This document shows positions 13,019 through 58,993 of a stretch of 64,000 bases of DNA, in pieces. Each line of letters opens with the position of its first letter. Position 1 is the stretch's first letter. The notes under the pieces are model-generated. The model worked only from the letters and a program-made list of their open reading frames with translations. It made no database searches and was not told the DNA's origin. Source of the DNA: Liolophura sinensis (Eukaryota; Mollusca; Polyplacophora; Chitonida; Chitonidae); NCBI RefSeq assembly GCF_032854445.1, contig NC_088305.1:3045001-3109000 (forward strand). Reading direction: 5' to 3'. Both the position numbers and the translations under genes were made by a program.

Positions 13019-14041
13019 TCAAATTTCGTTTTTAGTCTTGTTTATGCTCTTGGTCTCACTTTTGCTTCGTGTCAACATAGAAGAACTGGTAGATAGCAGC
13101 TGACCCTTAAACTGTTCACCAGGCTCTCTCTTTCCCATGAGATTTCTGAACGCCGTGGAGAATTCCTCGTTGTTCGAGTTGTACATGATGGGGTTGGCGC
13201 AGGAATTTGCCCAGAGAATGAAATAAGCTGCTTGGTACATAAGCGGTGAAAAGCTGACCTGTCGGTCCAAAAAGCGAATAAGGATGACAAAACTGTATCC
13301 GGTTGTCCAGGCGATGAATAAACGAAAGAGAAGTCTGGTGAGTCTGTTTTGACGTTGCTGCTTTCTGTTGAGGGAAAAGGAATACTTGGCGACAAATTGT
13401 CTGATTTTAATGTAAAATATGATGGCAATAACAGCAGCTAGGTAAAATAGCACAACGAAACTGATGGGCTGACCAGGAAACACTGGCTTCTCCCGAGTGC
13501 ACAGTCCCAGGTAAGGGTTATATTTAATGTTTCCTCCTGGAACCACAAAGGTGCAATACAACCCCGCATCGAAAATGACACAGAGTCCCAGGGCTCCATA
13601 AACCACTTTGTGGAACGTCGGCGACATTTTTCTTCGAGACGTCGTGATCTTGTAACGAGCCACGCTGAGAATGGCCTGTATCTGTGTCGACAGAATGGTC
13701 AATATGGGAGAAAGGAATGATGTCAGAAAGCACACGCGCCTGTTTTTATCGATGTCCAGGATGCGAATCACACACATCGGCAAAAAGAAGCCGCAGATTA
13801 TTAAGTCTGTAATGGAGAGAGCAGCGATTAAGTTGTGCGAAAGCGTTCGCAGTTTTCTATCTATTGCTGTGACAATGATAACCAAACCATTGCCGATGCT
13901 GCCGGTGATGACGAGTAGGCCCAGGCACCCTGCGAATATATTCCTGAACGACATCGCCACGGGCACAGTCCCATCGGTCGAGTGTCTCGTGATATTATTC
14001 CATGCCATCGAGGGTTTCATATGGCTACTGTTATACTGCAT
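13019..14041 (-). CDS. Orphan rhodopsin-class (class A) GPCR, atypical DRY motif
   Basis: A 340-residue seven-helix receptor expected in the plasma membrane; the ligand is unknown. I chose the ATG at 14041 because the open frame upstream of it has no ATG. Seen: N-glycosylation sites at N4 and N16; TM1 with GN at 50-51; TM2 with SITDL, Asp 79; the conserved Cys pair at C104 (start of TM3) and C181 (loop 2); SVARYK at 126-131 in place of DRY; TM5 about 193-213; TM6 with AWTTGY, lacking the usual CWxP proline; TM7 ending in NPIMY at 283-287; then a helix-8-like stretch and a Ser/Thr-rich tail. The coding region is one exon. A possible splice acceptor (TTGTATTCACAG) ends at 14111 on the minus strand, so an upstream exon is possible. 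Loss of the DRY acid and the TM6 proline suggests unusual activation. The subfamily cannot be set from memory. Confidence 0.88.
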   Translation of the reverse strand: MQYNSSHMKPSMAWNNITRHSTDGTVPVAMSFRNIFAGCLGLLVITGSIGNGLVIIVTAIDRKLRTLSHNLIAALSITDLIICGFFLPMCVIRILDIDKNRRVCFLTSFLSPILTILSTQIQAILSVARYKITTSRRKMSPTFHKVVYGALGLCVIFDAGLYCTFVVPGGNIKYNPYLGLCTREKPVFPGQPISFVVLFYLAAVIAIIFYIKIRQFVAKYSFSLNRKQQRQNRLTRLLFRLFIAWTTGYSFVILIRFLDRQVSFSPLMYQAAYFILWANSCANPIMYNSNNEEFSTAFRNLMGKREPGEQFKGQLLSTSSSMLTRSKSETKSINKTKNEI

Positions 14042-14239
14042 GCTCACTTCTCCAACAATGTTAGAGTCGAATCTCCAACAATATAGAGTATATATACAGC
14101 AGATAAGGTGCTGTGAATACAAGAGTTAGAGCATATGGAACTTCCAGGGGGATGTTCGAGATGATCACCTCTGCTAGCGTCAGTCTTACCTGGCTTCCAA
14201 AGAATCGAATTAACATGAACATAACAGTCTAATCAGTCT

Positions 14240-48089: not shown

Positions 48090-48594
48090 AAGTTGTTTAG
48101 CCTATTTGTTTTTGATATTACATGTGTTGTCTTAATATCATATGTGGACAGTGAACAATCAAGTGATGTGTCATCCTTAAAAAACCCTTTCTTGTGTAGA
48201 ACACAACCCTATCAGGAAAAATAAGGTGTACGAGATTATTTGATCTATTTATTTTTTTTTTATTCTGGCTGTTAAAAAAGATGTGAACTTTTAAGACATA
48301 AACATTAAGAGAAAAATGAAAGAAAAACTTTACGGGCCCTGTTTGGAGTTTTGGTTGGGTTAGTCGCAACAAACAGTTGTTAATGTTTTGCCTCATTCAT
48401 TTCTGACAGCTTACATTTATTGTCTAGAGTAGATATAGGTTTTGTTTGATTATTTTATTGTTGAAACATTGATGAAAACAGCAAATTTGACAGACCTAGA
48501 TGTGGGAGAAAAAAGCTTGTCTACTGGCCTTATTTCTACCTAGAGCTGATCTAGGCCGATTTTGAACCCGATATAACGGGTTTGGGCGTGGCCA

Positions 48595-48610
48595 GTTTGG
48601 GCGCCCAAAC
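48595..48610. promoter_or_regulatory. Perfect 16-bp palindrome near the hAT-like left end
   Basis: GTTTGGGCGCCCAAAC is its own reverse complement. A third half-copy (GTTTGGGCG) lies at 48580-48588, and an inverted half-site near the right end at 50377. Repeated subterminal words of this kind are transposase-binding sites in known hAT elements; that role is inferred here. Confidence 0.5.
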
Positions 48611-49010
48611 GAGTGACAAAGAAAAACAATATTCGCGGAAAAATGAACTTCACTGCTTGTATGGATCGGTCTAAACAGTAGGAAACAAAACGACATCAAA
48701 ACACCCTTAAATAGGCCATTACAATCACAATCGGTAGCTAGCGTGATGTATTGTTTAAATCTCTGCAAAGAGGATACAGAATATGCATTGTCACATGCTG
48801 TTTGAATCTGCGCGGAGAGTGGAACTCTTCTCCCAATAAATGTTAGGATAATCAGGTCACACGTGCAAGACAGTGACCTCAGACAGGTTGAAGGACATCG
48901 CGCATACAAAGCCAATGCAACTGAACGTGCGCGGTGACCCCGAAATCGTGCACTAGGCAAGAAATGGCAGGCGAGGTGATAGCGAGACGTACCGGTTGAT
49001 TGATGCCAAA

Positions 49011-49727
49011 ATGCCGCGTCCAAAGACGACTAGAGTTAGCCATAACAAAAAAGCGTCAACGTATAGATCCGGCCGATTAAACAGCACAGAGGACCTGAAA
49101 AATCCACAAAAAATAACAGATTTTTTTGGCGGTAGTGGTCGAAATAAGGCAAGGATTTCAGAAGCAAATGAAACACGTGACGGCATCGATAGTGAGGGAA
49201 GTGCTGCAGAGCCAGAGGTGCCGGAGTCGGGCGTGCTGATATCCCCTAGCCCCGAACCGGCGTCGGCAAGCACCAGCGAAACACCAAGCACTTCTAAACT
49301 TCACACCCAAGAAAACTTGGAAAATATACAGGAAAATGTCGACAGCGATAGGCCTTCAACACCAGAACAAACCGAGCCTTTAGACTATAGCACAACGGAG
49401 GGCAAAAGATTTGACGGACGAACAAACAGGGACGGTCAATCACGGGCCCTGTGGGAAAAAATGTTTTCTTGGATTTATTACAGTCATGACCAACAAGGTT
49501 GGAAGTGCAAATTATGTGAGGAATATGCTGTAACAGGTGACGAGACATGGAAAAATAAAGCAGTTAAACTAGAAGGCCATCCAAAAAGGGTTTTAGAAAA
49601 TCACAGCCGTGGCAGTAAACACCAGAATGCCATTACTCAGAAAAGAGCTATACAAGCCATGGTTTCCAAGGGAAATATAACACAGCAGATAACGAGCGGA
49701 GAAATGGGCTTCAGTGAAAGATCGTAG
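49011..49727 (+). CDS. Zinc-finger protein inside the hAT-like element, PIP-box-like motif
   Basis: An uninterrupted 238-codon frame. I start it at the ATG at 49011, the first ATG in frame. Seen in order: a basic N-terminus (MPRPK, HNKK); the PIP-box-like PQKITDFF at residues 32-39; an acidic, Ser/Pro/Thr-rich linker about 50-130; a WKCKLC block (Cys 166, Cys 169); then His 198 and His 204 in ENHSRGSKH, a C2-H2 spacing like the BED/TTF-type DNA-binding fingers at the N-termini of hAT transposases, notably those with a DUF4371 transposase. The protein stops about 30 residues after the finger, so the catalytic RNase H-like and dimerisation domains are absent. A GTGAGT donor lies 55 bp after the stop, so a spliced form could exist. 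It might bind the element's ends and act as a regulator, but that is inference. Confidence 0.75.
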   Translation: MPRPKTTRVSHNKKASTYRSGRLNSTEDLKNPQKITDFFGGSGRNKARISEANETRDGIDSEGSAAEPEVPESGVLISPSPEPASASTSETPSTSKLHTQENLENIQENVDSDRPSTPEQTEPLDYSTTEGKRFDGRTNRDGQSRALWEKMFSWIYYSHDQQGWKCKLCEEYAVTGDETWKNKAVKLEGHPKRVLENHSRGSKHQNAITQKRAIQAMVSKGNITQQITSGEMGFSERS

Positions 49728-50307
49728 GATCCTGCCTTGCTGAATCATAATGTGCTAATTTTCATTTGAAAAGATGAACTTGGTGAGTTAATACACAATT
49801 TGTTTGAGACTTTTTGCACATTATGGTTCTGAATGTATCTATTATGTGCATGTCTGACATACTGATAGTTATCAAGTCAATACATAAGAAATAGAATGTT
49901 TACTATAATGAGCAAGTAAATGAACTCAAAGCAGTGCTTGGGTGAAAGTCAAGGTACATTGTGCATGCACTTGTTTATTTACAACAACAAACCTGCTGAC
50001 ATATATGTGATGGTATGTGTTATAAATTAAAACCCGAGGGTCTGCGACAAAATGCACTGTTTCATTATTTGTCACATGTATGTATGTCACATCTAAAACT
50101 CAGGGTCAGTCCCAGTTCGTAGGCCTACAACAGAGACGTATATCGTTATATTATTAAAACATATATATATAGATGTAAAATATAAATGTGTGGATAGTAT
50201 TAACTAATATTTTAAGCTGTTTAAAATACCTGAGAGTGCTTTTCATAACATCTATCAAAGTGCTTAATATGGCCTAGAATGCATTTCTGGGCGTCGAAAA
50301 AATCTAG

Positions 50308-50340
50308 CGGCTGGGGGCCTGCGGCCACCAGACCCCCGGC
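50308..50340. other. GC-rich hairpin near the hAT-like right end
   Basis: GGCTGGGGGCCTG pairs with CCAGACCCCCGGC across a 6-7 base loop, with only two mismatched positions. It stands out in otherwise AT-rich flanks. Confidence 0.7.
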
Positions 50341-50414
50341 TAATAGGCAACGCCTCGCTACGCTCGGCCCAAGGGTGCCCAAACTTTGGACCTAGAATAG
50401 CCCCAGTTTCTACC

Positions 50415-51938: not shown

Positions 51939-53409
51939 CATGTCTTTCTGTATGTAAACTACATGTGTACTTGTATGTATGTATGTACATGTATGTAAAA
52001 CTTATTAGTGTATATATACATGTATATGTGTGTGCACAGCATGATAATAGCTTGTATGTAGACTTAATGAGGATAATTTGTCAGTTAACTGACTAATAAT
52101 GATGTCTTAAGAGCAGATTACATGGGTATGCGCGGCTGTGGGTGCGTTCTGTTTTTTATGTGTACATTACACTTTTACATGCCCTTGTGGTGTCATGCGC
52201 CATAATTCCGGAGGACGGAAGTGACAGAAAATCATGCAGCCCGTAATCTGTAACATACATTGTACATTCATCTAGTGTATATACATATACTATATAACCA
52301 TGTACATGTACTACAGTGGAGTACTTCAAGTGTATTATTTCTGAGTACTGTAGTTGTGGTTTCAAACAAGGATGGAGTAATGCTGTCTAATTTCAGTCAT
52401 ATGGAGCACTTATAAGTATGACTGTACATCAGGAGGGCAGTGTGTTTCTGGGTCAGTTTTTGTGTGTTCAAGTATACCCCCACAATTTCCCCTCCCCTAA
52501 CCTCCCATTCCTCTCCTGGTCTCCTGTCCCTCCATTTCCGGGGCTGATCTAAGGTTCCCCTATGCACCCCGATGAAGTAGGAAGGCCTTCTAACATCAGC
52601 CATGACTTTCCATCTGTCCATGGCTGTTTTAGCTGGCTTCTGTTTTGGTAATTTGTTTTCTGTCCACTGTTGACCAGATTTCCTCTGACAGCAAGATCAG
52701 ATTGTGGATTGCTCCAGCTGACATTTATGGAATTGAAATGTCGAAGGGACAGTTGAGGTCATTTGTCTACTGACCACATGACCTGGACTGCCAGTAGGCT
52801 GCAGCCAGTAGCCAGTGAGGAAGCACTTCCCTGTGTGTACATCTGCTGTAATTCTGAAACCTTTTGCCTGTTAGGAAGATAGCCACTCATGCACATATAT
52901 TCTGAGGTCACTTATAAGCTCTGTAGTCTATCTGATAAAGTTATGCAGTTTTCTGAACCCAACCAATGTACATGTAGTTTTGTCTCCAAAATGAAATTAA
53001 AAAAAGTGCATAAATGGAGCTGAAGGTTGCTTTTTCCTAGATGTTCATTTGTATATTCATGCGAAAAAGCACGGAATTAAGGTATGTATGTTACAGTGTA
53101 TATTATTTATGAGCATTTTTCTAGGCTCAGATATATGTACACACTCCATGCACCTTTAATTATAAGATTAATACAAACATTCATTTTTTCATTTGATACA
53201 TTAGGAGACATTTTATTGTTCAGTCTGAAATGCTGTAGAAAGGTATATGGTCAGTTTGTGGAGAAGCCTTTAGCTAACCCAGGGATAGAGGTACAATTGT
53301 ACATCATATATTGTATCCCCAACAGCTGGCAGTGTTTTACTGGGTGCAGGAAGTCCCTAAGGCTGCTCTGTGTATATACCCCAGATGATGATACTGGACC
53401 CACAGCCTC
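51939..53409. other. No recognisable gene
   Basis: TACATGTA-type words are dense at 51960-52030. No exon can be supported. Confidence 0.45.
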
Positions 53410-54835
53410 TGTATAGAGAATAGGTGTAAACATAGAGCATAAAATTAACCAACTGCTAGGCCTATGTACAGAGAATCAGTGTAAACATAGAGCATACCAT
53501 TAACCAATTGCTACGCCTACGTACAGAGAATCAGTGTAAACATAGAGCATACCATTAACCAACTGCTACACCTATGTACAGAGAATCAGTGTAAACATAG
53601 AGCATACCATTAACCAACTACTACACCTATGTACAGAGAATCAGTGTAAACATACAGCATACCGTTAACCAACTACTACACCTATGTACAGAGAATCAGT
53701 GTAAACATACAGCATACCGTTAACCAATTGCTACGCCTACGTACAGAGAATCGGTGTAAACATACAGCATACCATTAGCCAACTGCTACGCCTATGTACA
53801 GAGAATCAGTGTAAACATACAGCATACCATTAACAAACTGCTACGCCTATGTACAGAGAATCGGTGCAAACATACAGCATACCATTAACCAACTGCTATG
53901 CCTATGTACAGAGAATCGGTGCAAACATACAGCATGCCATTAACCAACTGCTATGCCTATGTACAGAGAATCGGTGTAAACATACAGCATACCATTAGCC
54001 AACTGCTACGCCTATGTACAGAGAATCGGTGCAAACATACAGCATGCCATTAACCAACTGCTATGCCTATGTACAGAGAATCGGTGTAAACATACAGCAT
54101 ACCATTAGCCAACTGCTACGCCTATGTACAGAGAATCAGTGCAAACATACAGCATACCATTAACCAACTGCTATGCCTATGTACAGAGAATCGGTGCAAG
54201 CATACCATTAGCCAACTGCTACGCCTATGTACAGAGAATCGGTGCAAACATACAGCATGCCATTAACCAACTGCTACGCCTATGTACAAAGAATTGGTGT
54301 AAACATACAGCATACCATTAACCAACTGCTACGCCTATGTACAAATAATTGGTGTAAACATAGAGCACACCATTAACCAACTGCTACGCCTATGTACAGA
54401 GAATCGGTGTAAACATACAGCATACCATTAGCCAACTGCTACGCCTATGTACAGAGAATCATTGCAAACATAGAGCATACCATTAACCAACTGCTATGCC
54501 TATGTACAGAGAATCATTGCAAACATACAGCATGCCATTAACCAACTGCTACGCCTATGTACAAAGAATTGGTGTAAACATACAGCATAACATTAACCAA
54601 CTGCTGCGCCTATGTACAGAGAATCAGTGTAAACATAGAGCATACATGTACCATTAACCAGCTGCTATGGCTATGTACAGAGAATCAGTGTGAACATAGA
54701 GCATACCATTAACCAACTGCTGCGCCTATGTACAGAGAATTGGTGTAAACATAGAGCATACCATTAACCAGCTGCTATGCCTATGTACAGAGAATCAGTG
54801 TGAACATAGAGCATACCATTAACCAACTGCTACAC
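53410..54835. repeat. Minisatellite, 55-bp unit, about 26 copies
   Basis: The unit contains CCTATGTACAGAGAATCAGT, GTAAACATAGAGCATACC and ATTAACCAACTGCTACG. Copies vary at a few sites (CAGTGT/CGGTGC, TAGAG/TACAG, AACC/AGCC). One unit near 54200 lacks about 8 bp, and one near 54640 has an extra ACATGT. The variants are clustered, as expected from unequal exchange. Confidence 0.96.
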
Positions 54836-55789: not shown

Positions 55790-56690
55790 GAGCCCTGGCT
55801 GATACATGTACGTGTACACAAGGCTTACATATGATGTGTACATTCTGTAGAATGTGTACAGACGATGCAGTGTACACATGTATCTGGGATGTTTTCACAT
55901 TGATCAGAACATTGGCTGTGTTTAGCTCTATATGTGAGGTGTGTACAGCGATGTTTGAGCATCTGGTTTTATCTACATTCAAACTGCAGTAGGACACTAC
56001 GCGTAGTGTTATAGTGTAGAATCAGCTGGTCTCGAGTATGGCCCAGCAAAGTGCAGCGCGGCACACAAAGACAGCTGTACATCTTAACACACCAGCAGAC
56101 ACTGACATGCAACTCCTGGCGATACTGGCCTCAGCGGCAGCAAAATCAGTCCTAGCTACAGTACCACAGCCAGCTGCAGCCGGTGCAGTGATGCAGGGCC
56201 AGTGCGTGTCGGCGCTCCACTCGCCGGTATAACAGGCGCAGTGGATATGTGCATGTCCTTTGAACAGCATGGCATGAGAAAGCAACATGTTTTATTGGAT
56301 TTTGGATGGTATGGATTAGATGGTAGCTTGTGCAGCTATTTGATGAAATCCCATCCCTACTGTAGCCAGCTGTGGTAATCAGCTTGGCACGGACTGGGAG
56401 ACTTGGCATGTATCATGGGGGAATATTGGACCAGCAGTTAGCAGATCTTGGTTCCAAAGAATTCATAATGGCTTTGTGACAGCCAGGGTTAGTCTGCAGA
56501 TATTTGTATGCTTAATACAGTTAGCATTTTGCAATGTTTTGATGTTCAGCAACATATGTAATTTACCACTGTTCATTGCCCAGTTGACTTAATACCAGTT
56601 TTAACCTTAATCCAAATCTTAATCCAAGTACTTAGCCCCAAAATAATTGCGTAACAGTATATTAAATATGAACTGAATATCCTGCTGCCC
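55790..56690. other. No firm gene; weak 64-codon frame at 56038
   Basis: An ATG at 56038 opens a 64-codon Ala-rich frame in a somewhat GC-richer patch, ending beside a weak donor (CCG|GTATAAC). An overlapping minus-strand frame of 88 codons exists. Neither has a recognisable domain. It could be an alternative 5' exon of the downstream gene, at low probability. Confidence 0.3.
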
Positions 56691-56696
56691 CATTGC

Positions 56697-58760
56697 ATGT
56701 GCATTCATATAAGTGTAATAGGTTCTATACAGCACAAGCTCATACGTGACAATACGTACACCAGTACATACAAGACAGTGAGATGTATACACATGACATT
56801 GTTGAATAGAGTTGTGCAGCACAATGTCATACATGACAATACGTATACCAGTACATGCAAGATAGTTAGATGTATACACATGACATTGTTGAATAGAGTT
56901 GTGCAGCACAATGTCATACATGACAACATGTATACCAGTACATGCAAGACAGTTAGATGTATACACATGACATTGTTGAATAGAGTTGTACAGCACAATG
57001 TCATACATGACAATACGTGTACCAGTACATACAAGACAGTGAGATGTATACACATGACATTGTTGAATAGAGTTGTGCAGCACAATGTCGAACATGACAA
57101 TACGTATACCAGTACATGCAAGATAGTTAGATGTATACACATGACATTGTTGAATAGAGTTGTACAGCACAATGTCATACATGACAACATGTATACCAGT
57201 ACATGCAAGATAGTTAGATGTATACACATGACATTGTTGAATAGAGTTGTGCAGCACAATGTCATACATGACAACATGTATACCAGTACATGCAAGACAG
57301 TTAGATGTATACACGTGGCATTGTTGAATAGAGTTGTGCAGCACAATGTCGTACATGACAATACGTGTGCCAGTACATACAAGACAGTGAGATGTATACA
57401 CATGACATTGTTGAATAGAGTTGTGCAGCACAATGTCGAACATGACAATACGTATACCAGTACATGCAAGATAGTTAGATGTATACACATGACATTGTTG
57501 AATAGAGTTGTGCAGCACAATGTCATACATGACAATACGTATACCAGTACATACAAGACAGTTAGATGTATACACATGACATTGTTGAATAGAGTTGTAC
57601 AGCACAATGTCATACATGACAACATGTATACCAGTACATACAAGACAGTTAGATGTATACACATGACATTGTTGAATAGAGTTGTACAGCACAATGTCAT
57701 ACATGACAACATGTATACCAGTACATGCAAGATAGTTAGATGTATACACATGACATTGTTGAATAGAGTTGTGCAGCACAATGTCATACATGACAACATG
57801 TATACCAGTACATACAAGACAGTGAGATGTATACACATGACATTGTTGAATAGAGTTATGCAGCACAATGTCATACATGACAACATGTATACCAGTACAT
57901 GCAAGACAGTTAGATGTATACACGTGGCATTGTTGAATAGAGTTGTGCAGCACAATGTCGTACATGACAATACGTGTGTCAGTACATACAAGACAGTGAG
58001 ATGTATACACATGACATTGTTGAATAGAGTTGTGCAGCACAATGTCGAACATGACAATACGTATACCAGTACATGCAAGATAGTTAGATGTATACACATG
58101 ACATTGTTGAATAGAGTTGTACAGCACAATGTCATACATGACAATAGGTATACCAGTACATACAAGACAGTTAGATGTATACACATGACATTGTTGAATA
58201 GAGTTGTGCAGCACAATGTCATACATGACAACATGTATACCAGTACATACAAGACAGTGAGATGTATACACATGACATTGTTGAATAGAGTTGTGCAGCA
58301 CAATGTCATACATGACAACATGTATACCAGTACATACAAGACAGTGAGATGTATACACATGACATTGTTGAATAGAGTTGTTCAGCACAATGTCATACAT
58401 GACAACATGTATACCAGTACATGCAAGACAGTTAGATGTATACACATGACATTGTTGAATAGAGTTGTGCAGCACAATGTCATACATGACAACATGTATA
58501 CCAGTACATACAAGACAGTGAGATGTATACACATGACATTGTTGAATAGAGCTGTGCAGCACAATGTCGAACATGACAATACGTGTACCAGTACATACAA
58601 GACAGATGTATACACATGACATTGTTGAATAGAGCTGTGCAGCACAATGTCGAACATGACAATACGTGTACCAGTACATACAAGACAGATGTATACCCAT
58701 GACATTGTTGAATAGAGTTGTACAGCACGTCATACATGACAATACATACAATAGTATATG
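56697..58760. repeat. Minisatellite, 87-bp unit, about 23 copies, seven-unit higher-order repeat
   Basis: Each unit has GATGTATACACATGACATTG, TTGAATAGAGTTGTGCAGCA, CAATGTCATACATGACAA and CGTATACCAGTACATGCAAG. Variant sites (GTCATAC/GTCGAAC/GTCGTAC, ATACG/ACATG, TGC/TAC, GATAGTT/GACAGTG) recur in order. The rare CACGTGGCATTG variant is at 57312 and 57921, exactly 609 bp (7 x 87) apart, and neighbouring units match at the same distance. Because 87 is divisible by three, frames stay open for 640 codons on the plus strand and 727 and 551 on the minus. The last two units lack 4 bp, breaking the frames. Confidence 0.96.
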
Positions 58761-58807
58761 TACATACATGTCATTTATGAATTTAAGTGTACGTGTGTCC
58801 ACACCTA

Positions 58808-58993
58808 CCCTAAACTACCTAAAATTCGACCACAAAAATCATTTTTGGAGGCCAGTAAAGGTCATGAGATATTACTTCTGGTGCTAAAATATACATTTTC
58901 CCAGTAGGATATCATCCTACTCTCAAAGCACCTTTCTAAAAATCCATAAAATTCCCAGATTCTGGGAAAATAAGCAACTTTGTCATGGAGGAA
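58808..58993. repeat. MITE, partial copy related to the one at 62710
   Basis: It starts CCCTAAACTACCTAAAATTC after a TA, then CCACAAAAATCATTTTTGGA, GGTGCTAAAATATACATTTT, GTAGGATATCATC, GCACCTTTCTAAAAATCC and ATTCCCAGATTCTGG, in the same order as 62710-62925. Its right terminus is missing, replaced by a 28-bp tandem repeat. Confidence 0.8.

Follow-up and report, generated by a model that had tools for sequence, protein, structure and literature searches.

Does a transposon that carries nothing but an intact zinc-finger frame keep that frame as a gene in its own right, or is the frame what a deletion has left of a transposase? The question is raised by a 1.87-kb element in the genome of the chiton Liolophura sinensis, which lies within a stretch of 64,000 nucleotides analysed as a whole (the window, C11:3045001-3109000). 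A sequence-only reading of the window had seen in its 238-codon frame a possible repressor, titrator or helper for a full element elsewhere, with a recent internal deletion as the alternative, and had proposed that relatives be sought with both ends of the element.

We searched a genome of 609 Mb in 632 contigs with the reported element and with each of its ends; the repeat counts given here are lower bounds. The whole element returned 24 matches, of which 19 were pieces that assembled into ten elements; the other five were short, weaker (78-93% identity) and confined to the left end. Across the whole genome, the left end (141 bp) gave 15 matches, ten at 98-100% identity and five weak, and the right end (145 bp) gave 10, all at 99-100% and all in the same ten copies. 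The search with both ends thus yielded a family of ten copies with the same ends, eight of them long (3359-3711 bp) and two short, namely the window copy and a second copy, L009, at C8:30881247-30883114. Any two of the ten differed by 4-24 substitutions over at most 3705 aligned positions, and the copies are therefore young; the long copy L010, for instance, differed from its nearest relative, L013, at 4 positions. The DNA into which the full-length copy L012 is inserted has many GTGGCACAGTGAGTAGTAC-like repeats, and these create long spurious frames on the other strand.

Alignment of the ten copies fixed the common edges of the element and bore out the proposal of a bounded element with agreeing flanking repeats. 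The limits proposed earlier were right to within one base, the left edge being C48540, and the direct repeats at the edges exist at a length of 7 bp rather than the 8 bp first reported. The element starts with CTAGAG and finishes with CCCCAG; all ten copies share the start (CTGGAG in L016) and finish with ATAGCCCCAG. The features of the window copy are collected in Table 1.

Table 1 Features of the element in the window copy, in window coordinates.
Feature	Position	Strand	Remarks
Whole element, 1867 bp; almost certainly non-autonomous and derived from a 3.7-kb hAT transposon by internal deletion	48540..50406	+	Same ends in ten genomic copies
Left target-site duplication TTTCTAC, 7 bp	48533..48539	.	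Identical to 50407-50413; edge from ten-copy comparison
Right target-site duplication TTTCTAC	50407..50413	.	Identical to the left one
Left terminal inverted repeat CTAGAGCTGATCTAGG	48540..48555	+	12/16 positions match the right end
Right terminal inverted repeat, CTGGGGCTATTCTAGG reading inward	50391..50406	-	Pairs with the left end
Subterminal words GTTTGGGC	48580-48587 and 48595-48602	+	Exact; within 48580..48610
Reverse complement of GTTTGGGC	48603-48610		Exact; within subterminal region 48580..48610 (+)
Right subterminal word GTTTGGGC	50377..50384	-	Exact
238-codon open frame: transposase residues 1-229, 9 out-of-frame residues, stop	49011..49727	+	ATG start
Zinc-finger-like region, zf-C17orf113-like, residues 152-212 of the transposase N-terminus	49464..49646	+	E=0.19, below cut-off; alignment with L028
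Deletion junction	49694..49697	+	1838 bp absent relative to L010; 2-bp microhomology AG at 49695-49696

The terminal inverted repeats were short and, as the sequence-only reading had described them, imperfect: CTAGAGCTGATCTAGG and CTGGGGCTATTCTAGG agree at 12 of their 16 positions. When the two 80-bp ends were aligned locally, the score was reached by 9 of 1000 shuffles and the alignment picked the subterminal palindrome, so this comparison gave only modest sequence support for the inverted repeat. The repeated subterminal words were likewise present, as four exact occurrences of GTTTGGGC over the two strands: the left 71 bp hold three, and the fourth lies close to the right end.

At the common edges, target duplications were exactly 5 bp long in eight of the ten copies (ATTAG, ACTGT, GAGTG, GATGT, ACAGG, CTACC, TTTCA and TTGGT); in the other two copies, the window's (TTTCTAC) and L010 (CCTCTTC), they were 7 bp long. 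A left edge shifted by one base gave 8 bp in the window copy and in none of the other nine; a match at the next base beyond the duplication was also seen in L014 and L016, which makes three of ten, about the number expected by chance. By this comparison the 8-bp repeat reported earlier consists of a 7-bp duplication and a chance match at one further base. A single family thus showed two exact duplication lengths, 5 and 7 bp, with none of 6 or 8 bp at the common edges, and L010 had a duplication of 7 bp, yet its nearest relative, L013, had one of 5 bp.

We then looked for uninterrupted insertion sites of five copies (the window copy, L009, L010, L015 and L017) by joining their flanks. The joined flanks of L015, whose site lies in a repeat, were matched unbroken in all 40 of the matches listed (the best 40 of 861 candidates), and those of L017, in a small repeat, were matched end to end by five relatives at 92-97% identity. 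For L015 and L017, therefore, the uninterrupted sites fixed both the edges and the 5-bp length of the duplication. Joined flanks of the window copy matched its own two flanks alone (2 matches, 2 candidates), and an empty site was found neither for L010 among the best 40 of 482 candidates nor for L009 among the best 40 of 1957; the left flank of L009 is a repeat whose matches stop near the insertion point. As none of these three copies gave an empty site, the 7-bp duplications are deduced from the edges that the other copies define.

To place the family we turned to the long copies. L012 has a single-exon transposase frame of 858 codons that starts at the same ATG as the window frame. Translation from the shared ATG ran over 856 codons in L010 and in L013, 815 in L016, 406 in L014, 288 in L015 and 184 in L011; L017 has lost the start (345 bp deleted), though from residue 105 onwards its frame is open throughout. 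Full-length open frames of 856-858 codons were thus present in three of the eight long copies (L010, L012 and L013), and L016 was open at 815 codons with alignment gaps that sum to 123 bp. The 858-residue protein matched Pfam DUF4371, which we take to be a domain belonging with hAT transposases, at 38.2 bits (cut-off 32.1), and fell below the cut-offs for Dimer_Tnp_hAT (12.9 bits against 21.4) and zf-C17orf113 (11.6 against 29.5).

By itself the 858-residue protein had no match in the PDB at E<=1. A profile built from the transposase and eight pieces of relatives from the same genome matched Hermes transposase with a best E of 4.8e-10; the best stretch lay in the C-terminal part, and the relatives in the profile contribute to the match. 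Four distinct PDB sequences were matched, two named Hermes transposase (6dww and 8edg) and two named simply 'transposase' (4d1q and 2bw3), which we assume to be Hermes transposase as well. The family therefore resembles Hermes as a distant relative, with no match for the single protein. One more diverged relative in the genome, L028, passed the cut-offs for DUF4371, Dimer_Tnp_hAT and zf-C17orf113 (the last at E=1.8e-14) and aligned along the length of the transposase, and another, L026, has a finger and DUF4371 in one frame, the finger being below cut-off. The alignment with these relatives made visible the candidate motifs ADESTD, CRNH, TRW and ERGFS, presumably the catalytic-type motifs of a hAT transposase.

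On the homology of its transposase, with DUF4371 and the Hermes profile match of the parent, the family belongs to the hAT superfamily, as the sequence-only reading had assigned it. The 8-bp target duplication typical of hAT was found at the common edges in none of the ten copies; this does not exclude hAT, since groups with 5-, 6- and 7-bp duplications are described in the relevant part of PMC12730594. The hAT5 group is characterised by 5-bp target duplications in the sections of PMC9004415 and PMC12730594 that deal with it, and a hAT5 label is likely for our family from the exact 5-bp duplications in eight of its ten copies. The likeness is one of duplication length, and two copies, the window copy included, depart from it with 7 bp. 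The 'hAT-5' of PMC6004678 is, where that source uses it, the name of a family with 8-bp duplications and not the hAT5 group. A second hAT family, with three copies (G000:C4:10231209, C4:688541 and C2:5164647) whose frame starts are near-identical, was 42-43% identical to the transposase over residues 231-484, and on C4 about 33 kb separate one of its copies from the long copy L015.

The long copies also bear on the origin of the short form. Relative to L010, the window copy lacks 1838 bp (1844 relative to L012, which has six extra bases, and 1837 relative to L015), and the loss begins after residue 229 of the transposase and spares about its last 15 codons. The short frame leaves its parent at this junction with an out-of-frame tail, GEMGFSERS, and the stop finishes 31 bases past the junction. 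Aligned with the long copies, the 238-codon frame is the remnant of a longer transposase frame and not a gene of its own. Part of the earlier description of an intact 238-codon zinc-finger gene therefore stands, namely the open ATG frame, which at 238 codons compares with at most 179 in 500 single-base shuffles, and the part that made it a separate gene does not. Its zinc-finger identity is similarly divided: the region aligns with L028, which passes the cut-off, while in the element itself it is weak by sequence and below the Pfam cut-off. When the structure of the 238-residue protein was predicted from its sequence alone, the model was uninformative (mean pLDDT 46.1).

The sequence-only reading had also pointed to a GTGAGT 55 bp after the stop, which is indeed present at 49783-49788 and from which the remainder of a transposase might have been supplied by splicing. 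What lies downstream of it in the element, however, is the 3' part common with the long copies, past the transposase stop. L012 encodes its transposase in one unbroken frame and has the GTGAGT only after the stop of that frame; the motif is identical in all ten copies. The chance that splicing completes the protein is negligible, and we rule it out, there being nothing to splice to.

The window copy and L009 share the breakpoint. Two substitutions, at columns 607 and 912, set this pair apart from all eight long copies. A further two (51 and 935) are private to the window copy, and L009 has five of its own together with a one-base insertion. The two short copies lie on different contigs (C11 and C8), in unlike flanks, and with different duplications (TTTCTAC and ATTAG), which argues against a segmental duplication. 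A common breakpoint and private substitutions at different target sites point to one deletion, after which the short form transposed at least once. A deleted founder, then, arose once and moved at least once more, presumably in trans. The recent internal deletion that the sequence-only reading had offered as an alternative was thus supported by the long copies and the common breakpoint, with the qualification that the window copy is not strictly alone in lacking the transposase. The second copy with the same deletion indicates that the founder transposed again, not that the zinc-finger protein was selected for.

We also weighed the reverse order of events, in which the zinc-finger-only form, separately maintained as a helper or titrator, came first and the transposase part was acquired later by the long copies. 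The short structure is indeed common to two copies. Against this, the short frame runs unbroken into the 858-codon transposase of the long copies, its tail beyond the junction is frameshifted, the substitutions at 607 and 912 are in short copies and in no long copy, and in the distant relatives L028 and L026 a single frame encodes both the finger and DUF4371; so far no outgroup element has been seen that conserves the short form. We give this order of events practically no credence, and the continuous frames (858 codons in L012, 856 in L010 and L013) and the substitutions of the short pair rule it out. Used as a protein query against the genome, the 238 residues found 14 matches, of which 13 lay in the ten known copies and the 14th was a weak, 30-residue match to a diverged relative at C6:38966990. 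This search missed the fingers of L026 and L028 and is too insensitive to reveal zinc-finger-only members of other hAT families. Among the papers listed in literature searches we found none on a zinc-finger-only hAT element, and in the broadest of these listings (the best 15 of 146) deleted hAT elements were absent by title.

We next considered whether the shortened protein may itself act. Repressor-type deleted P elements are described, in the part of PMC12393704 that treats them, as having an interrupted transposase translation and a retained DNA-binding domain, and such elements can give defective transposases that occupy binding sites (PMC12393704). KP is presented as dominant negative in a passage of PMC6917496, and the same general point is made for inactive transposases in part of PMC2874221. 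By analogy, a truncated protein made from the promoter of the element itself would bind the subterminal words and block the full transposase. The window copy resembles KP, of the Drosophila P family, in its internal deletion and in keeping an N-terminal, putatively DNA-binding part in a frame that is open over 238 codons; its transposase translation is interrupted and a DNA-binding domain is probably retained, as in the P elements described in PMC12393704.

The sister copy departs from this structure, as the one-base insertion breaks its frame and brings a stop after 185 codons, so that the frame is broken in one of the two short copies found. KP, moreover, belongs to another superfamily, and nothing suggests that the window element has been amplified or its frame kept. 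The shortened protein is without the C-terminal dimerisation region, and open frames remain in three full copies. Compared with the commonest base of the long copies over the first 228 codons, the window copy carries three replacement and no silent changes, and so does L009; two of the changes in L009 are common with the window copy, one of them K45N in a basic cluster, which makes four distinct changes in the pair. Each long copy has 0-3 replacement and 0-1 silent changes over the same codons (10 and 2 summed over the eight), and all these counts are too small to test constraint or to reject it by themselves. As the long copies share the same mix, the pattern is how young copies of this family look. 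With L009 frameshifted and all four substitutions of the pair being replacements, the short-form frame gives no sign of preservation at the sequence level.

We therefore consider a repressor of this kind improbable, and it is a shade less probable that the element is a new KP-like, self-limiting one of a hAT5-type family in which the window protein and the full transposase are rivals for the GTTTGGGC words. Nor did the earlier notion of an undamaged DNA-binding-only gene serving as repressor, titrator or helper hold up, given a deletion in two of ten copies, a frame kept in one of those two and an accidental 9-residue tail. The many copies with the same zinc-finger-only structure that the sequence-only reading had thought worth seeking amount to that same pair.

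Taken together, we are confident that the element is non-autonomous and arose by internal deletion from a cut-and-paste transposon of the hAT (hAT5-like) type that was active recently. The genome holds a full 3.7-kb form with a single-exon frame of 858 codons; one derivative lost 1838 bp at the 2-bp microhomology, probably through end-joining or interrupted gap repair, and this derivative now occupies two unrelated sites, each with its own target duplication. The intact ends and GTTTGGGC words should let the transposase of full copies excise and reinsert the short form in trans, as in the relation of Ds to Ac. The open zinc-finger frame would be a by-product, still unbroken on account of its young age. 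The dependence of Ds on Ac is described in a section of PMC12393704, and our family resembles that system in having a deleted derivative with intact ends beside full-length, transposase-coding copies. It is unlike Ac/Ds in that only two short copies were found here, and mobilisation in trans is suggested by the common deletion at two sites. Short, non-coding elements in many uniform copies (MITEs) are a poorer comparison, as the element is 1867 bp long, partly coding and found in two copies.

Elsewhere in the window, positions 56622-58814 hold three long open frames that overlap and take up both strands. An 87-bp tandem repeat of 23 copies (56730-58745) underlies them, and they stay open over it because 87 is a multiple of three. 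The Pfam matches of one of these frames (RavZ_C, RnlB_antitoxin and others), with no stretch that passes alone, look like repeat artefacts. A 55-bp tandem repeat (26 copies, 90% matches) occupies 53405-54833, and a 368-residue open frame at 13022-14125 on the minus strand matches the rhodopsin-type 7-transmembrane receptor family (E=7.4e-16).

The element is thus a recent internal-deletion derivative, of the ordinary kind, of a young hAT family; it is most likely mobilised, as an ordinary passenger, by the intact relatives that the genome also contains. Should the repressor reading nevertheless prove true, a KP-like repressor would have been caught at its origin, with three full-length open copies still present. 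The mixture of 5- and 7-bp duplications in one family is a small point for studies of hAT integration. The family offers a clean young example of the birth of a non-autonomous element, in which one genome shows the open-frame relatives, a single deletion and a deleted form that has since jumped at least once.
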